From Candidatus Planktophila sp. (GTDB taxonomy: Bacteria > Actinomycetota > Actinomycetes > Nanopelagicales > Nanopelagicaceae): a DNA stretch of 64,000 nt. The notes beneath the pieces are model-generated. The model ran no database searches, was not told where the DNA came from, and was given only the letters and a program-made list of their open reading frames with translations. Positions within the stretch are counted from its first letter, which is position 1. The number at the start of each line of letters is the position of its first letter. The DNA is taken from the NCBI GenBank assembly GCA_021741905.1, contig JAIOWZ010000002.1, positions 1 to 64,000 on the forward strand, read 5' to 3'. This document shows, one piece after another, positions 47,041 through 54,541 of this stretch. Position numbers and translations under genes: made by a program.

Positions 47041-48624
47041 TTAATTCAGGGGATCGTTGGCCCAGAGCCAGATATTTCGATCCTCCGGTAAGCCCTCCAT
47101 TAGTTCTAGCGCATAGGGTCCACCATTTTGGCGTTGCCAATCGTTTGCCGCCAAGAGACGAGAAAGTCCAGCAAGTGCAACTGGGTCAGCTAACTCATCT
47201 GGTGTTCCATTAAATACAACAGGGCCGGCATGATCAAAGACCACGGTCCCGATAGCAATTTTGCCGTTTGTTGTTTTCACAATCTCAATTACTCGTGATT
47301 GTTGTGGCCAATCTATGTGCGAGCCAGTGCGGATCTCCCAAAACGCATGAGACCCGTCATTGTTCTTACTTTGTGTGATTTTGTGATCGTGCACGTGTCC
47401 CGAGAACCACAAAACAACATTAGGGTGTTTTTCAAGAAGTCTACGAACTTCTTCTTCCAGCGCTGGCGCACTTTCTTCTTCTGGCACATAACCGTTAAAC
47501 AAATTCTCTAATGGGTGATGTGAAGTCAATACCACGTACTTATCTTTAGATTCATCTAACATATGTGACAACCAGTCAAATTGTTCACGATGTAGACAGC
47601 CTTGCCACCCACCAAAACGATTAACTGTATCTAAAGCAATCAATCGAACCTGTGTGCCGATATTTCTATACCAGTATGAAGTCTCTGGTTGTTCTGCATC
47701 TAAACCATGATCGTGTCCGCAATTTGTATGAACGTTTACCCAGTCCTGCATCTTTACCAGCGCGCGACGATGATCAGCTGTTACCTCATTAGTGTCCATG
47801 TGATCTAACCCTGGATACACAGCAGGACCAACTTCACCAAAACCTGAAAAAAGGTCTGCTAAATCAGCCATGTTCTTCAGTGCAGCTAATTTTTCGGAAC
47901 CTTGTGCAAGTGCATCTAACTCTGGAGTTGTTGCTGCTGTGCCCTGCAACAACGCATCATGGTTTCCATGGACTGCCAGCCACTTATGCGTTAAACCTTT
48001 TGCTATAAATTGACGCTCTGATGCTTCAAGTGCACCTTTAAAATGTGGAAAGTCATGGAGTACATGCGGGCGATCTGCCGGCATACCTGTTGGTGGTCCA
48101 TCTGGATGGTAATAATGCGCGTCATAGAGGTCAGCATTAGATGAGTGAGAGGCCTCAGAACGCTGTGGATCACCGCTTTTAGGGGTTACAACACCGCCAT
48201 CTAAAATTCTCTTATACCAATCCAGTTCATTGCTTTGTGCGTTATCTGTGACATCACCTGTAATGACAACTGCATCAATTGGTGCTCCAGTCAGTGGTGC
48301 GCGCTTGATCTCATTTGCGGCAACCACCATTGCTTCTAGAACTTGGGTAGTTAAGAACTCTTGCGCGCGATATGTGCCGATGTATGGAACCAGCTGCGAC
48401 AAAGGATTATCTGGATCTGCAATGCGATCTAGAAACTCGAGGCGAGCAGGTGATGCAGCATCGCAAATATGGATGTCACTTAAATGGATGAAGGCTGCAA
48501 CAACTTGTGCGTTAAGTGGTTCATCACCGATTACATTTTCACCTTTGTCATGTAGTAATTCACGCCAATTGGAATCTGGTGAAACTTTAGATCGAACAAT
48601 TCGGTTTGTTGATGTGCTAGACAT
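47041..48624 (-). CDS. Cytosolic metallophosphoesterase linked to the aminophosphonate operon
   Basis: The calcineurin-type phosphoesterase motifs are spread over about 530 residues with long insertions: LSDIHICD near the N-terminus, ITGDVTDNAQ, VHGNHDAL, LTSHHPLEN and FSGHVHDHK. These supply the metal ligands. The spacing resembles the TIGR03767-type (PPA1498) family, but no Tat or Sec signal is present. The ORF track begins with TTG at 48633; the ATG at 48624 overlaps the ATPase stop. As last gene of the importer operon it may release phosphate or an aminophosphonate from an imported ester. The substrate is unknown. Confidence 0.8.
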   Translation of the reverse strand: MSSTSTNRIVRSKVSPDSNWRELLHDKGENVIGDEPLNAQVVAAFIHLSDIHICDAASPARLEFLDRIADPDNPLSQLVPYIGTYRAQEFLTTQVLEAMVVAANEIKRAPLTGAPIDAVVITGDVTDNAQSNELDWYKRILDGGVVTPKSGDPQRSEASHSSNADLYDAHYYHPDGPPTGMPADRPHVLHDFPHFKGALEASERQFIAKGLTHKWLAVHGNHDALLQGTAATTPELDALAQGSEKLAALKNMADLADLFSGFGEVGPAVYPGLDHMDTNEVTADHRRALVKMQDWVNVHTNCGHDHGLDAEQPETSYWYRNIGTQVRLIALDTVNRFGGWQGCLHREQFDWLSHMLDESKDKYVVLTSHHPLENLFNGYVPEEESAPALEEEVRRLLEKHPNVVLWFSGHVHDHKITQSKNNDGSHAFWEIRTGSHIDWPQQSRVIEIVKTTNGKIAIGTVVFDHAGPVVFNGTPDELADPVALAGLSRLLAANDWQRQNGGPYALELMEGLPEDRNIWLWANDPLN

Positions 48625-49657
48625 TAGTGACAAGAACCTCAGAACTTAATACTCGTAGTTGAACAGATGATCCTGGAAGCAGGTCTCCGGTTGACGCACT
48701 TGTCATGAGCGATTGCACAATGGTGCCATCTGCTGTTTGACAAATAATATTTGATGAAGCGCCCATAAAGGAACGTGTCAAGACCTTTGCGTTGCCCTGC
48801 GCAGTTGCTGCTGCCACAGAGATCGATTCTGGACGAATAAGTGCATGCACTTTTCCAGTTTCATTACCGCGCTTTAGAGCAACCACTTTGCTTCCAAAGA
48901 TTTCAACCATTCCGTCTGTAATGTGTGCAGGGATTCTGTTCATGGTGCCAACGAAACCTGCAACAAATGATGAGGCAGGCTTGTTATACAGAACATCTGG
49001 GGTATCGATCTGCTCAAGTACACCGTTGTTCATTACACCCACGCGGTCAGAGATAGCCATAGCTTCTTCTTGATCATGTGTAACAAATAGAGTTGTTGTG
49101 CCTAAGGAAAGTTGAAGGCGACGAATCTCTTCACGCAGGTTCACGCGCACCTGGGCATCAAGTGCGGACAATGGCTCATCCAGCAAGAGAATTTCTGGCT
49201 CAAAGGCAAGTGCTCTAGCCAGTGCTACACGCTGCTGCTGACCACCTGAGAGCTGATGAGTGAAGCGCTTACTTTGTGAATCTAGGCCCACCAAATCCAA
49301 GAGCTCATGTGCTTTCTTAAGGCGCACATGCTTACTCACTTTTCGCATCTGCAAACCAAAAGCTACATTTTCTTCGACGGTTAAGTTAGGAAATAGTGAG
49401 TACGCCTGAAAAACCATTCCCATGTTTCGCTTATGTGCTGGTACATCTGAGATGTTTTTATCGGCAACCAACACTGTTCCAGAATCCTGATGTTCTAACC
49501 CTGCAACTACTCGAAGTGCTGTCGTCTTGCCGCAACCTGAGGGTCCCAGGAGTGCAACCAGCTCGCCCACGCCAACCTCAAGGTTGAAGTTGTCTAAAGC
49601 GATCACGTTTCCAAATCGCTTTGAAATGTTTCTTAAGGAAAGGCTCTTACTAGACAT
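48617..49657 (-). CDS. ABC transporter ATPase (PhnT/FbpC/PotA type)
   Basis: The ATPase has Walker A LLGPSGCGKTTALR, LSGGQQQRVALARAL and Walker B ILLLDEPLSALD. A C-terminal TOBE-like domain follows, with LIRPESISV. The ORF track adds 45 codons; the ATG at 49657 is preferred because GGGAG lies 6 nt upstream and the start overlaps the permease stop as TAATG. It energises the two permeases encoded just upstream for import of a phosphonate, or alternatively of ferric ion or a polyamine. Local gene content favours 2-aminoethylphosphonate. Confidence 0.9.
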   Translation of the reverse strand: MSSKSLSLRNISKRFGNVIALDNFNLEVGVGELVALLGPSGCGKTTALRVVAGLEHQDSGTVLVADKNISDVPAHKRNMGMVFQAYSLFPNLTVEENVAFGLQMRKVSKHVRLKKAHELLDLVGLDSQSKRFTHQLSGGQQQRVALARALAFEPEILLLDEPLSALDAQVRVNLREEIRRLQLSLGTTTLFVTHDQEEAMAISDRVGVMNNGVLEQIDTPDVLYNKPASSFVAGFVGTMNRIPAHITDGMVEIFGSKVVALKRGNETGKVHALIRPESISVAAATAQGNAKVLTRSFMGASSNIICQTADGTIVQSLMTSASTGDLLPGSSVQLRVLSSEVLVTNV

Positions 49658-50436
49658 TACTTTCTCCCTTGCGTAGAACGTTCTGGAACAAAAAGCGTTA
49701 TAACAGTCAAAATTAGGAATGGAATGATTAGAGACATCATTGAGATGGCGATGGCGCCAAGGATGTTGTCTTGTGCAACATATGTGACCCAAGTTGGGAA
49801 TGTGTCCCAGTGAAGTAAAACAGTCAGTGTGTATTCGCCAAGGGATAAAGCAAATGTCAGCGCAATCGTTGCCATGACCGAACCTCTAATTACTGGAACA
49901 ATCACAGTCGTAATCGTACGCAACCAGTTTGCACCTGCGCTACGAGCTGCTTCAGTGATCGTTTTCAGCGGAATTGAATTTAGGCCAATATCTAGTGATC
50001 TAAATGCATACGGAAGCGCCAATACGAAATAAAGGAATGGAAGTTCTAGAACTGTATTTTGCACAAACTCTGGGAAAGAAATTTGCGCACCTACGGCAAA
50101 TGCAACTACTGGAATAACAAGAGGTAGCAGGGATAAACCATCAATTAGGCCACGCACCTTTGAGTTTGATAAGTGAAGCCAAGTCAAAGTTGGAACTAAT
50201 ACAAATAATGTGATTAAAACTGTTACCCCAGCCAACCACATTGACCTAAGGATGTAATGAAAGAAATCTTCTTCTCTGACAGCCCAAATATAATGAGTCC
50301 ATCCATATCCACCAGTTAGGGGTGTGCGGATCGAGTATTCAAAAGCTGAAATCATCGGCACAAAAACAAAGAAGCCTAAAATCAGAAGTGTTGCCGCCAG
50401 CGCTGGCCGGAACCTAATTTTTATCCCTTTTGCCAT
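49657..50436 (-). CDS. ABC transporter permease 2 (PhnV/FbpB-like)
   Basis: This 259-aa membrane protein has about six spans. The EAA loop is ITEAARSAGANWLRTITTVIVPVI near residue 160. It overlaps the upstream permease gene by 16 nt and the ATPase gene by 1 nt. It should form a heterodimeric pore with the preceding permease. Confidence 0.88.
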   Translation of the reverse strand: MAKGIKIRFRPALAATLLILGFFVFVPMISAFEYSIRTPLTGGYGWTHYIWAVREEDFFHYILRSMWLAGVTVLITLFVLVPTLTWLHLSNSKVRGLIDGLSLLPLVIPVVAFAVGAQISFPEFVQNTVLELPFLYFVLALPYAFRSLDIGLNSIPLKTITEAARSAGANWLRTITTVIVPVIRGSVMATIALTFALSLGEYTLTVLLHWDTFPTWVTYVAQDNILGAIAISMMSLIIPFLILTVITLFVPERSTQGRK

Positions 50437-51320
50437 CTGGCACTCCTACGTTGAATAGCAAGATATGGAATGACTGCACAGGCCGAAATCACAATCATCA
50501 CAACACCTAAGGCTTTACCAAGGTTTAATTGTGCTGCTGAAACATTTCCATCTAATAATCCACCAATTTGAAGTGGTGTTAATGGAAGATTTCCAACCGT
50601 TAAAGCATTTGCTGTTGCATAGGCTGAAAATCCGCTTGCAAATAGCAATAAGAAAGATGCGATGAAACTAGGGAAAAGCAAAGGAATACCGATTCGAACC
50701 CAGTAATTAAACTGGCTTGCACCTAGGTTGCGTGCTGCTTCGGACCATTCGCGGCGAAGAGAAACAATTGCCGGAGAAAAGACGATGATCATCAGAGGAA
50801 GTTGAAAGTACAAATACACGATCAAGAGACCGATGAAGGAGCCAAGTGAAAATGTTCCTGAATATAGATCCCAGCCCAGATACTTGAGAGCTTTTGTAAG
50901 ATACCCCTGAATTCCAAGGGCTGCATAAAACATAAATGCCAGTGGGACACCACCAGTATTGGCAAGCACGCCACTCATGACAGCAATGGTCCGGCGTAGT
51001 TTTGAACTTCCTCGAGTTTCAATGAAGTATGCCGCTAGTGCGCCAGGAAATGCTGCGATGGCAGCGGAGAAGATGCCGATCTTTATGGAGTTGATAAACC
51101 CTGTTCGATAGGGCTCTTGAAGGGTGGTTTTGAAGTTATCGAGTGTGAAGGTATTTTCGTTGGACATAAAAGAGACATAAATCAACCGGCCAATTGGGAA
51201 TAGAAAAAAGAAACCAACGATCAACAAAAGCGGAACCGCTGGAAGGATATTCCTTATAAAAGAAACGAGGGAGGCGCGTCCCCTTGAAGGCGCGCCTCCC
51301 TCTATGACTTGGGAGGTCAT
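50421..51320 (-). CDS. ABC transporter permease 1 (PhnU-like)
   Basis: This 299-aa permease has about six spans after a short polar N-terminus. The EAA loop is WSEAARNLGASQFNYWVRIGIPLL near residue 195. Codons 7-18 encode EGGAPSRGRASL and simultaneously form a 12-bp hairpin in the DNA/RNA followed by a T-rich stretch. The ATG lies 9 nt after the binding-protein stop and has no strong ribosome site, so both its transcription and translation may be kept low relative to the binding protein. Confidence 0.88.
   Translation of the reverse strand: MTSQVIEGGAPSRGRASLVSFIRNILPAVPLLLIVGFFFLFPIGRLIYVSFMSNENTFTLDNFKTTLQEPYRTGFINSIKIGIFSAAIAAFPGALAAYFIETRGSSKLRRTIAVMSGVLANTGGVPLAFMFYAALGIQGYLTKALKYLGWDLYSGTFSLGSFIGLLIVYLYFQLPLMIIVFSPAIVSLRREWSEAARNLGASQFNYWVRIGIPLLFPSFIASFLLLFASGFSAYATANALTVGNLPLTPLQIGGLLDGNVSAAQLNLGKALGVVMIVISACAVIPYLAIQRRSARWQKG
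51267..51302 (-). terminator. Intragenic hairpin/attenuator candidate at the start of permease 1
   Basis: On the minus strand GAGGGAGGCGCG, a 12-nt loop, and CGCGCCTCCCTC form a perfect 12-bp stem, followed by GTTTCTTTTAT. This looks like a rho-independent terminator within the first 60 nt of the permease coding sequence. CCTCCC in ATGACCTCCC just upstream could pair with GGGAGG of the 5' arm, and TATGAC/GTCATA (51304-51322) forms a further small stem. Mutually exclusive structures are therefore possible. Confidence 0.65.
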
Positions 51321-51329
51321 ATTTCTTTT

Positions 51330-52535
51330 TTACAAACTAGCCCATGAAGAGATGATCTGTTCGCGAGCTGTTAGTACGTCGGCGATAGTTGCAGGTCCAA
51401 CAATCTTTGCAGTTGAAGGAACCTTGAAATCAAGAAGTGATGGAACAAGTAACTTCTTCTTGGTCATTGCTGCAGACATGATTGGGTCTGCACCTGACTG
51501 CTGGAAGTAGTTCTGTCCACCTTGCATGATTGCAAACAACTTAGAACCAGGAAGCTTTAGATCTGCAGCAGTTAACTGAGCAGCTGTCTTTCCCTTGTTC
51601 TGTGAGTAAACAAACTCTTGCCACAAACGAGCGTTGGCACAGTTTGGCGACTTAACGTTGATTGCGTTGATGTATGGAGGTGCTTGTAGAACGAAATCTG
51701 TTGGGTAAACAAACTTAAGGTCTAAGCCTGCTGCCTTTGCTGCTGGAATAATTCCAAGAGCGTTGAAGTCCCACATGAAACCAAGCTTTGCTGTTCCAGT
51801 AGCAAGGTTTGTTCCGTTTACCTTTACTAGTGGAGCTTGAGCCTTTACAGCCTTATAAAGTGCAAGACCCTTAGTTACATCTGAAAGATTCTTTTCTCCA
51901 CCGTTTCCGATGCTTGCTGCCAAAACTGACATAAAGGCTTGGTTAGAAGAGGTTGGGTCTCCAGTGATACCTACAAAGCCCTTGTATTCTGGCTTTGCGA
52001 AGTCTGCTGCCTTTGTTGGCACTGATGGAAGAGTTGTGTTGTATACAATCGCAAGCTTTCCACCGTAGTTTCCGTACCAAAGACCTGTTGAGTCCTTAGC
52101 TGCACTTGGGATGTCATTCCAGTTAATAACTTGGTAAGGAGTAGACAAAGGCTTTCCTCCTGGAGGAGTTAGCTGTGCAACTACTAGAGGTCCAATATCG
52201 ATTGAATCCGGTTGCTTTGACTTAGGTGCTGTCTTCATTGTGTCGATCTCGTACTGTGATGATCCATCTGGATTGTCAACAGTGATCTTTACGCCGAAAG
52301 CCTTCTCGTATGCATCATGAATCGCACCGTAGTTTGCCCAATCGCGTGGTGTTGTGATGAGAGCAAGCTTGCCCTCTTTCTTAGCGGCCTTGATTAGGTT
52401 GTCTAATCCGCCTGCTTCTTTAACATTCTTTGCCTTACAGATATCTATGGCTGCTGTGGCTGGAGTTGCGATTGCAACGATTCCAACTGCAACTACTGCA
52501 GCGGTTGCTGCAGCTACTAAACGCTTTGCGCGCAT
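51330..52535 (-). CDS. Periplasmic-type binding protein for AEP/iron-class ABC importer
   Basis: This 401-aa protein has the signal peptide MRAKRLVAAATAAVVAVG, cleaved probably after PATA. No lipobox cysteine is present; the first Cys, in DICKAK, is not in a lipobox setting. The mature part, with LDNLIKAAKKEGKLALITTPRDWANYG and a later PEYKGFVGITGDP, matches family 6/13 binding proteins for ferric ion, 2-aminoethylphosphonate, thiamine or spermidine. The neighbouring PhnX-like and FAD enzymes favour an aminophosphonate ligand. Confidence 0.85.
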   Translation of the reverse strand: MRAKRLVAAATAAVVAVGIVAIATPATAAIDICKAKNVKEAGGLDNLIKAAKKEGKLALITTPRDWANYGAIHDAYEKAFGVKITVDNPDGSSQYEIDTMKTAPKSKQPDSIDIGPLVVAQLTPPGGKPLSTPYQVINWNDIPSAAKDSTGLWYGNYGGKLAIVYNTTLPSVPTKAADFAKPEYKGFVGITGDPTSSNQAFMSVLAASIGNGGEKNLSDVTKGLALYKAVKAQAPLVKVNGTNLATGTAKLGFMWDFNALGIIPAAKAAGLDLKFVYPTDFVLQAPPYINAINVKSPNCANARLWQEFVYSQNKGKTAAQLTAADLKLPGSKLFAIMQGGQNYFQQSGADPIMSAAMTKKKLLVPSLLDFKVPSTAKIVGPATIADVLTAREQIISSWASL

Positions 52536-52619
52536 ATGTGGGATCCCTTCCTAAGGATTGTGAGCGCACTCTTTACCTAGAAAAGAAACAATCGGTGTTG
52601 TGAAGGTGTCGGAGTAAAG

Positions 52620-52641
52620 TCATGAGGGTGAACACTCATGA
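52620..52641 (-). promoter_or_regulatory. Palindrome upstream of the binding-protein gene
   Basis: TCATGAG and CTCATGA form a perfect 7-bp inverted repeat with an 8-nt spacer in the 117-nt gap between the HAD gene and the binding-protein gene. The minus strand reads GTTCACCCTCA in the spacer/right arm, vaguely like half of an actinobacterial PHO box. It may be an operator or an mRNA hairpin; this is not decidable by eye. Confidence 0.35.
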
Positions 52642-52652
52642 AAAACTCAGGG

Positions 52653-53318
52653 TTAAATAAGTGACTTTAAATCGGCTACAGAGTTAATAACAGATGTCGC
52701 GCCGGCATCATGCAGCGTGTGCTCATCATGCGCGCCTGTTAAAACACCAATCGATTGACCGGCACCAAAGGTAACTGCAGCTTGCATGTCTGCTGCAGTG
52801 TCTCCCAGAACAATCACATCCGCGGGATTTGTAATACCTAAAGTAGTCGCAGCTTTTTGTAACATATCTGGGTGTGGACGACCACGACCAGCCTCACCGG
52901 GTGTTACTGAGATATCAATTAGATCTTTCCATTCTAGTTCGTTGATCAAAGTTTCTAATGTTGATCTGCTAAATCCAGTAGTTAGCGCAATTGCAATTCC
53001 CTTTGAACGCAGGTATTTAAACACATCTTCGGCACCTGCAATGGGAACTGCTCCAAATTCTGCAATCTTGCTGACATATGACTCTTCAAAAGCAACATTT
53101 GCTGTGTGTGCTTTTTCAGCATCACCTAATAACTTTGTAAAGACATCGAGCTTTGATTGACCCATGGTGTCAATTGCATACTGAGTCCATTCAGCGCCAT
53201 GTGTGGGCCACAATTCAGGCTGTGTTGCTTCAAATGCATTCTTGAATGCGGAAATGACGAGCCCATCATCATTCAGAACTGTTCCTGCAACATCAAAAGC
53301 AACCATTTCTACGCTCAT
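52653..53318 (-). CDS. PhnX-like HAD phosphonatase (TIGR03351-type)
   Basis: This HAD-superfamily enzyme of 221 aa begins VEMVAFDVAGTVL, with the DxAGT form that marks phosphonoacetaldehyde hydrolase relatives instead of DxDxT. MGQSKLDVF near residue 56 has the cap lysine that forms a Schiff base with the aldehyde. RGRPHPDML replaces the usual Lys by Arg, and VLGDTAADMQAA is the last motif. The predicted reaction is C-P bond cleavage of a phosphonoacetaldehyde-like compound. ATG at 53318 overlaps the oxidoreductase stop (TGATG) and has AAGGGG 5 nt upstream; the ORF track starts at the preceding GTG. Confidence 0.87.
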   Translation of the reverse strand: MSVEMVAFDVAGTVLNDDGLVISAFKNAFEATQPELWPTHGAEWTQYAIDTMGQSKLDVFTKLLGDAEKAHTANVAFEESYVSKIAEFGAVPIAGAEDVFKYLRSKGIAIALTTGFSRSTLETLINELEWKDLIDISVTPGEAGRGRPHPDMLQKAATTLGITNPADVIVLGDTAADMQAAVTFGAGQSIGVLTGAHDEHTLHDAGATSVINSVADLKSLI

Positions 53319-54430
53319 CACAGCCCCTTAATTGTTTCTTCGGCAATTGCCGGAGCCAGGGTATTTCCTCGGCCTCCGGGTCCAGTTACTGAAATGATGT
53401 TGTGTGCCATGTGGCGACGATCGCAAACAGCACCATCTGTGCGCTGGCTATAAACACCATCCCAGCGATTAACAATTGGTGGCAGTTTCTTCCCTAGCAA
53501 ATTGCTGGCAACTTCATGGAGGTATGTGTATGGATCCTCATCTAATTTAAATTCAAATGGCTCTGCGTATTCATGTGTGTCACCAATCGTCAAGGTGCCA
53601 TCTGCGCGCTGCACCATCAATAGCTGCATATGATTAGTTGATGCAATGTGATGTTGTGGTGGCAGATTCTCACGTGTGGGCACTTCATATCCTGGGTAAT
53701 AACGCATTGAATCACCATCAGCAATAGAGGTCGTTAAGACCTCATCAAGAGGTGCGGTACTCATCATCTGCAATCTCACGCGGCGAATTGGCGCGGTATC
53801 AAACTGTTCTTTAAATAAGGAAGTGTGGTCTGCCCCTGGGCATACAATCGCAACATCACCTTCAAACAATTCACCATTACGGGCAACAACTACCGCTTTA
53901 CTTCCATCGCTTCTGATATCTACAACATCTAGATTATTCCGCCAAATATAGTTCTCATTGCGCAGCAAATACTCTCGCATTGACCGCAACACTGACCCTG
54001 GCTCAACTGTTGCATCCAGTGGACACCAAAGTGAGGCTAAGTAATTTCCGCGTAGCGCAGGGTTAATCTTCTGGGTTTCATCTCGATCAAGTATCTGCCA
54101 TTGACGGTCTAGCGCATCCTCTTTCTTTAAACACTCTTCCATAACAGCTACTTCTTCTTTGTTTATTGCAAGAGTTAATGATCCGTTTGCGCGAAAAAGC
54201 ATTTCTGGAATTGCGCCATGAATCTCGTCCCATAAGTGGCGAGCGCGAACGGCTGCTTGTAATTCAGCACCACTTTTTCGGCCGCTGACCCAAACCAGCC
54301 CAAAGTTTCGAACTGAGGCGCTTCTGGCCACATCATCGCGCTCAAGCTGGATGACCTGGTGGCCACCTTTGATCGCCTCAAAGGCATGGGCAGTCCCGAT
54401 GATGCCGCCGCCGATAATCACAATCTTCAT
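53318..54430 (-). CDS. FAD-dependent DAO-family oxidoreductase (TIGR03364-type)
   Basis: The N-terminus KIVIIGGGIIGTAHAFEAIKGG binds FAD, and ARSASVRNFGLVWVSGR is typical of the TIGR03364 subgroup, which occurs beside PhnX-like hydrolases. The C-terminal GPGGRGNTLAPAIAEE completes the FAD site. Members are proposed to remove the amino group of an aminophosphonate oxidatively, giving the aldehyde that the HAD enzyme cleaves. It is the first gene of the cluster and overlaps the HAD gene by 1 nt. The 111-nt gap to the divergent acyl-CoA dehydrogenase holds the promoters. Confidence 0.85.
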   Translation of the reverse strand: MKIVIIGGGIIGTAHAFEAIKGGHQVIQLERDDVARSASVRNFGLVWVSGRKSGAELQAAVRARHLWDEIHGAIPEMLFRANGSLTLAINKEEVAVMEECLKKEDALDRQWQILDRDETQKINPALRGNYLASLWCPLDATVEPGSVLRSMREYLLRNENYIWRNNLDVVDIRSDGSKAVVVARNGELFEGDVAIVCPGADHTSLFKEQFDTAPIRRVRLQMMSTAPLDEVLTTSIADGDSMRYYPGYEVPTRENLPPQHHIASTNHMQLLMVQRADGTLTIGDTHEYAEPFEFKLDEDPYTYLHEVASNLLGKKLPPIVNRWDGVYSQRTDGAVCDRRHMAHNIISVTGPGGRGNTLAPAIAEETIKGL

Positions 54431-54541
54431 GGTGGCTACTGTCCTGTGCTTGGCTGAACAGCGGGTTTATCCCACGCGAAGGTTAAGCAAACTGTCGCGT
54501 TCTGTGTTGATTATGTTACTGGTGGGTAGCACAATTACCCC

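Follow-up and report, generated by a model that had tools for sequence, protein, structure and literature searches.

We analysed a stretch of 64,000 nucleotides (hereafter the window) from Candidatus Planktophila sp. (assembly GCA_021741905.1, contig JAIOWZ010000002.1, positions 1 to 64,000), in which seven genes form an operon that probably takes up organic molecules with a C–P bond and releases their phosphate. All seven open reading frames are open, complete and codirectional on the minus strand. In the direction of reading they encode a FAD (flavin adenine dinucleotide)-dependent amine oxidase of the TIGR03364/PbfD type (370 residues; 53318..54430), a HAD-family phosphonatase-like (PhnX-like) hydrolase with predicted C–P bond cleavage (52653..53318), an ABC substrate-binding protein (SBP) of the SBP_bac_6 family (PF13343; 51330..52535), ABC permease 1 (50421..51320) and permease 2 (49657..50436), both matching PF00528, an ABC ATPase with a TOBE domain (PF00005 and PF08402; 48617..49657), and a calcineurin-like metallophosphoesterase (MPE) of the TIGR03767 family, predicted to be cytosolic (47041..48624). 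The genes overlap at the FAD/HAD (1 nt), permease 1/permease 2 (16 nt), permease 2/ATPase (1 nt) and ATPase/MPE (8 nt) junctions and are separated by 117 nt between HAD and SBP and by 9 nt between SBP and permease 1. An earlier reading made from the letters alone (the sequence-only reading) had given the same gene order with mostly overlapping junctions, and both hold; the upper end of its 1–17 nt range does not, as the 17 nt was counted from an upstream TTG, whereas the conserved MPE ATG at 48624 gives 8 nt. The gene set is real and conserved, and is a variant of a known pathway with an extra phosphoester-cutting enzyme that appears to be new to it.

The C–P enzymes and the importer

The FAD protein scored 292.8 bits against the hidden Markov model (HMM) TIGR03364, above the cut-off of 285.1, and matched the DAO fold PF01266. 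PbfD2 and the TIGR03364-annotated PbfD1 use O2 to make phosphonoacetaldehyde from N-methyl-2-aminoethylphosphonate (N-methyl-AEP) and 2-aminoethylphosphonate (AEP), the substrates favoured by the tested PbfD enzymes, and activity has been demonstrated for these two members of the group only; the TIGR03364 description quoted in the same paper suggests 1-hydroxy-AEP (PMC10590968). The proposal that the oxidase yields an aldehyde is thus in line with the family assignment, and AEP-type processing by TIGR03364 enzymes, which the sequence-only reading had called merely proposed, now has activity behind it. As another source of the aldehyde, PhnW was considered and rejected: it was not found in the window genome or in 13 relatives, where just two matches lay far below the cut-off, and therefore the PbfD-type enzyme is the likely source.

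For the HAD protein, the best NCBIfam match was TIGR03351 at 195.2 bits (cut-off 218.9), followed by the PhnX equivalog TIGR01422 at 86.6 bits (cut-off 220), and none of the seven matching genomes reached the TIGR03351 cut-off. Thus, of the two subfamily placements that had been expected, the FAD protein's stands, but that of the HAD protein stands only as a best match. Judged by its sequence, the HAD protein works like TIGR03351 enzymes, and with its score below the cut-off we do not count it as a member. Its closest solved structures are PhnX, and the motifs DVAGT, TMGxxK, GRP and GDT were invariant in 20 relatives, which bears out the DxAGT, cap Lys and Arg motifs noticed earlier and the assignment to a PhnX-type hydrolase. 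The aligned PhnX chain shows matching MGLLK and GRP stretches, with the lysine column not exactly registered in the profile alignment; we take the lysine of TMGxxK to be the Schiff-base residue of PhnX. A phosphonatase-type HAD gene was linked to FAD at every inspected FAD locus of the order with sufficient room, and in 12 of 13 loci outside the order but in the same phylum. Taken together, the pathway assignment for the FAD and HAD proteins is strong, with the product of the window HAD protein being what we infer from these relatives.

In the importer, the SBP has an N-terminal hydrophobic signal, no lipobox was seen, and its closest solved structure is 5t1p, its fold being common to FbpA, AfuA and AgtB. 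An adjacent Tyr–Tyr dyad is the metal-binding feature of FbpA-type ferric-ion SBPs; no such dyad occurs anywhere in the window SBP, and it is absent from 16 of the 22 aligned SBPs, so the window protein does not have the mark of an FbpA-type ferric-ion importer. None of the components reached the equivalog cut-offs of the AEP importers PhnSTUV or PhnS2T2U2: the SBP scored 21 bits against PhnS (cut-off 395), permease 2 scored 45 bits against PhnV TIGR03255 (cut-off 358.7), the ATPase scored 391 bits against its best model, TIGR03265 PhnT2 (cut-off 457.7), and the nearest named models of permease 1 (PotB/PotC and the AEP permease) were all below cut-off. We hold the assignment of the importer to aminophosphonates with moderate confidence.

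Probable phosphate control and conservation of the gene set

The actinobacterial PHO-box consensus is a direct repeat, GTTCACC-N4-GTTCACC (PMC4832192, PMC4415409), and the pstS promoters from 14 genomes in the lineage have either this repeat or one close to it. At the pstS promoters L272–L286 the boxes are clear, with three tandem units in several genomes. When only the Streptomyces consensus was used, the signal was no more than suggestive, with a slight excess inside coding DNA too, and that scan was replaced by a position weight matrix trained only on the pstS promoter sites of the lineage, with 324 upstream regions as controls. Upstream of SBP in HAD-bearing loci the mean score was 9.26 bits compared with 2.54 for the controls, with 21 of 37 regions above the 95th control percentile, and upstream of FAD it was 7.0 bits; P-values for these comparisons are inflated by the relatedness of the genomes. 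Regions upstream of the ATPase gene were slightly above controls (3.62 bits), and those upstream of HAD, permease 1, permease 2 and MPE showed no excess over the 324 controls. In the window, a PHO-box-like direct repeat on the minus strand (ATAAACC-CGCT-GTTCAGC; 54453..54470), 22 nt 5′ of the FAD start codon, scored 13.5 bits, above the 99th control percentile. The HAD/SBP gap (52536..52652, minus strand) carries PHO-box-like repeats in many relatives and looks like a second promoter region there. As the matrix marks both promoter regions, the operon is probably a phosphate-starvation (Pho-regulated) operon.

A survey of 251 genomes of the order found TIGR03364 in 37 (about 15%) and TIGR03767 in 104, with an above-cut-off TIGR03767 match in 82. 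Neighbourhoods of up to 20 kb were labelled by BLASTP with the window proteins. The order FAD-HAD-SBP-permease-permease-ATPase-MPE was found at 27 of the 28 FAD loci with contig room, the window counted and loci cut by contig ends left out, and it recurs in family members whose proteins are as little as about 40% identical, far more than chance arrangement would give. Among 31 distinct FAD+HAD loci, 28 have an MPE start codon placed so that the gene overlaps the ATPase end by exactly 8 nt, as do both HAD-only loci, even though MPE identity between loci drops to 42%. Thus the linkage of MPE with PhnX-like genes, for which a neighbourhood survey had been proposed, is real. The two HAD-only loci, HAD-transporter-MPE without FAD (L071 and L143, genomes G023 and G133), come from genomes that each have a weak match to the PhnW model elsewhere.

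Pairwise protein distances among 31 complete operons separated the genes into two blocks: FAD, HAD and MPE were mutually correlated with r of 0.88–0.94, SBP, both permeases and the ATPase with r of 0.86–0.95, and the two blocks with each other with r of 0.58–0.75. MPE correlated with FAD and HAD at 0.88 and with the transporter genes at 0.62–0.75 in the 31 loci, and with FAD and HAD at 0.92–0.93 in 14 loci. After removal of the pstS background in 14 genomes, the values were 0.92 (MPE–FAD), 0.91 (MPE–HAD) and 0.69 (MPE–SBP); these are descriptive correlations without a formal test, based on one background gene and on related genomes. Because the distances split in this way, the four transporter genes seem to have been replaced as one unit, with MPE keeping to the C–P enzymes from the opposite end of the operon. 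Between L101, L096 and L103 on one side and the window, L097 and L130 on the other, SBP is approximately 48% identical to that of the window and FAD and MPE 62–72%, which points to an importer swap as a cassette. The possibility that MPE is a chance neighbour was rejected on the basis of the conserved order, overlap and co-variation.

We rejected the idea that all TIGR03767 genes of the order are part of such operons: in the MPE tree the operonic forms stood apart from a clade of 36 of the 60 rows, whose members are orphan, convergent or merely nearby and have other neighbours such as homocysteine methyltransferase; the branches are long and the placement of L079, L084, L086 and L088 is uncertain. 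At L113, L114 and L117 a related transporter has a zinc alcohol dehydrogenase on one side and a mandelate-racemase-type dehydratase on the other, and malate synthase lies upstream. A long collagen-like repeat protein (PF01391; L107:2-2089) precedes another transporter locus of the order.

A survey of 397 genomes of the phylum found, outside the order, no MPE within the 8-kb flanks of 13 FAD+HAD loci of other actinobacteria, often with an ATPase nearby, and no FAD or HAD gene beside TIGR03767 genes at seven loci. As MPE–FAD/HAD linkage was not found in these 397 genomes apart from the window, the seven-gene form looks like an invention of the lineage within this sampling, with occurrence elsewhere still possible. 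The host is an actinobacterium of the acI/Nanopelagicaceae type (a 1.25-Mb genome of 88% completeness, split into 44 contigs), and the nearest named carriers of the locus are metagenome-assembled genomes (MAGs) of Nanopelagicaceae/Planktophila and isolate IMCC26077 (L218, CP015606), described as acI-C1 (PMC5301498). The titles of five public MAGs (L194, L246, L250, L255 and L257; Fonsibacter, Bifidobacterium breve and Streptomyces griseus) mismatch their loci, which are of this lineage, and look unreliable, as perhaps does a Microbacteriaceae title. In the window, a dCTP deaminase gene lies downstream of the operon, and divergent acyl-CoA dehydrogenase and EamA transporter genes lie on its upstream side.

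The metallophosphoesterase and its possible place in the pathway

MPE scored 48.7 bits against PF00149 (gathering score 21.5) and 329.5 bits against TIGR03767, whose cut-off is 330.75, so that the first of the two expected HMM assignments holds and the second is borderline, about one bit under the threshold. The metal-ligand motifs DxH, GDxxD, GNHD, H and GHxH are invariant among relatives, as are residues D50, H52, D124, N221, H369/H370, H410 and H412. The AlphaFold2 model (pLDDT 89.9) best matched the folds of SMPDL3A/B, Lmo2642, GpdQ and acid sphingomyelinase, mostly phosphodiesterases; TM-scores were low across the whole protein, and we used these matches for enzyme class, not substrate. 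The window MPE has no signal peptide and its profile match begins at TIGR03767 position 32, whereas for many of its relatives from the phylum the match starts at positions 1–3 and three of their four readable N-termini carry twin-arginine (Tat) signals, consistent with the cytosolic location that had been proposed.

We reasoned that the SBP-permease-permease-ATPase importer would take up an aminophosphonate, either free or as a small ester such as the glyceryl ester that phosphonolipid breakdown would leave, and that cytosolic MPE would cut the P–O ester to give free AEP or N-methyl-AEP. The PbfD-type oxidase would then produce phosphonoacetaldehyde, amine and H2O2, and cleavage of the C–P bond to acetaldehyde and phosphate would fall to the PhnX-like HAD enzyme, acting with a Schiff-base lysine and an aspartate nucleophile. 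That the operon turns aminophosphonate into phosphate is likely. The substrate of MPE and its whole step are what we infer; action on a phosphonate ester falls a little short of an even chance. More tentative still is a dedicated route for esterified aminophosphonates in a dominant freshwater lineage, in which a TIGR03767 enzyme lacking the export signal that its relatives have would hydrolyse the imported esters in the cytosol and so supply a phosphate-controlled PbfD/PhnX-like pathway. The full explanation, a Pho-regulated operon that takes phosphorus from aminophosphonates and includes the ester step, stands in our estimate at even chances.

Several observations weigh against this explanation. 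The HAD score is under the TIGR03351 cut-off, the window site upstream of SBP (52640..52657) is weak at 7.8 bits, not above the 95th control percentile, and the SBP ligand, and with it the imported substrate, is putative. At the level of sequence profiles MPE matches Rv0805 and purple acid phosphatases too, the latter being phosphomonoesterases, and therefore any diester specificity is putative. In one genome (G228, locus L126) the FAD-HAD-transporter unit ends at the ATPase without an operonic MPE, and six loci (L079, L084, L137 and L139–L141) carry SBP-permease-permease-ATPase-MPE only. Since TIGR03364, TIGR03351 and PhnW were not found in seven searched genomes with transporter and MPE only, most of them incomplete, MPE may serve other substrates, and such a unit is possibly a separate organophosphate uptake system. 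In the six loci the SBP is divergent, often with a 1-nt TAATG coupling.

The same relatives would fit the main alternative, a parallel branch, in which the importer also carries phosphodiesters such as glycerophosphoethanolamine that MPE hydrolyses like GpdQ/UgpQ, with FAD and HAD handling free aminophosphonate apart. The fold shared by the window SBP and the sugar-phosphate SBP AfuA, the place of GpdQ among the closest solved relatives of MPE, and a TIGR03767 gene that, in another branch, converges on a related transporter all agree with it; within FAD+HAD operons, however, MPE distances follow FAD and HAD and not the transporter, and we regard this branch as unlikely, if far from negligible. 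The convergent arrangement was seen at L072, L106, L107, L108 and L110, where the upstream genes are unknown or encode an FAD protein resembling sarcosine oxidase. The same agreement of MPE distances with those of FAD and HAD, and the ATPase/MPE coupling conserved in sequence-divergent loci, make another reading improbable, in which MPE takes no part in phosphonate breakdown but is a phosphomonoesterase or nucleotidase of general use in phosphate starvation that became part of a Pho-regulated operon, even with the PHO boxes, the purple acid phosphatase matches and the link of a Cutibacterium TIGR03767 enzyme to organic-phosphorus release (PMC9723661); scavenging phosphatases are, moreover, usually exported, and MPE is cytosolic. 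We give very little weight to FAD and HAD using a different aminophosphonate, for example 1-hydroxylated AEP, with MPE processing an intermediate: the TIGR03364 description and the sub-cut-off, PhnX-like rather than PhnX, HAD protein would suit it, but N-methyl-AEP and AEP are the preferred substrates of those PbfD enzymes that have been tested (PMC10590968) and the HAD protein retains the PhnX catalytic motifs.

In most freshwater lakes the acI actinobacteria are reported to be the most abundant bacteria, and the acI paper searched for this makes no mention of phosphonates (PMC5301498). If the Pho-controlled operon works as read, phosphonates would be a direct phosphorus source for acI. A cytosolic esterase co-varying with the C–P enzymes makes bacterial access to ester- and lipid-bound phosphonates directly testable.

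Comparison with known systems

Import followed by cytosolic diester hydrolysis has an analogy in GpdQ (3d03, 2zo9), with fold TM-scores by target of 0.62–0.64 and a weak sequence match, although the window MPE is approximately 13% identical to it, 250 residues longer and in a different operon. UgpQ is likewise a cytosolic diesterase tied to an importer, and PhnP is part of the C–P lyase route. The TIGR03767 enzymes of Cutibacterium, Streptomyces and other actinobacteria belong to the same HMM family as the window MPE but differ in their N-termini and in having no FAD/HAD link at the 13 and seven loci inspected outside the order.

The sequence-only reading had held the MPE step to be undescribed in this pathway, and term searches agreed: none of the papers on PbfD, HpnW and AEP importers, the 2023 review or the 2025 PbfF paper gave such a phosphoesterase, and the literature consulted, mostly non-subscription papers, yielded neither an MPE in a phosphonatase cluster nor a study of TIGR03351. 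The hydrolytic PbfD–PhnX pathway for AEP and N-methyl-AEP resembles the window operon in having a TIGR03364/PbfD oxidase beside a PhnX-type hydrolase without PhnW, but the window operon is actinobacterial, has a PhnX-like HAD of sub-cut-off TIGR03351 type and adds MPE, a term search finding no phosphoesterase in that paper (PMC10590968). The Achromobacter hpnW-phnSXUT operons also combine a TIGR03364 oxidase, a phosphonatase and an ABC importer with no phnW in the cluster, but have LysR and the HD-domain PhnHD and no MPE, with HpnW function untested there (PMC11203657). A formylglycine-type phosphonate monoester hydrolase (PEH) of phosphonate degraders has been proposed to free ester-bound phosphonates in marine dissolved organic matter, as we propose for MPE, but is of an unrelated fold (PMC5649143). 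Thus the ester-hydrolysis step is not new as an idea, whereas the MPE family and the arrangement appear to be new.

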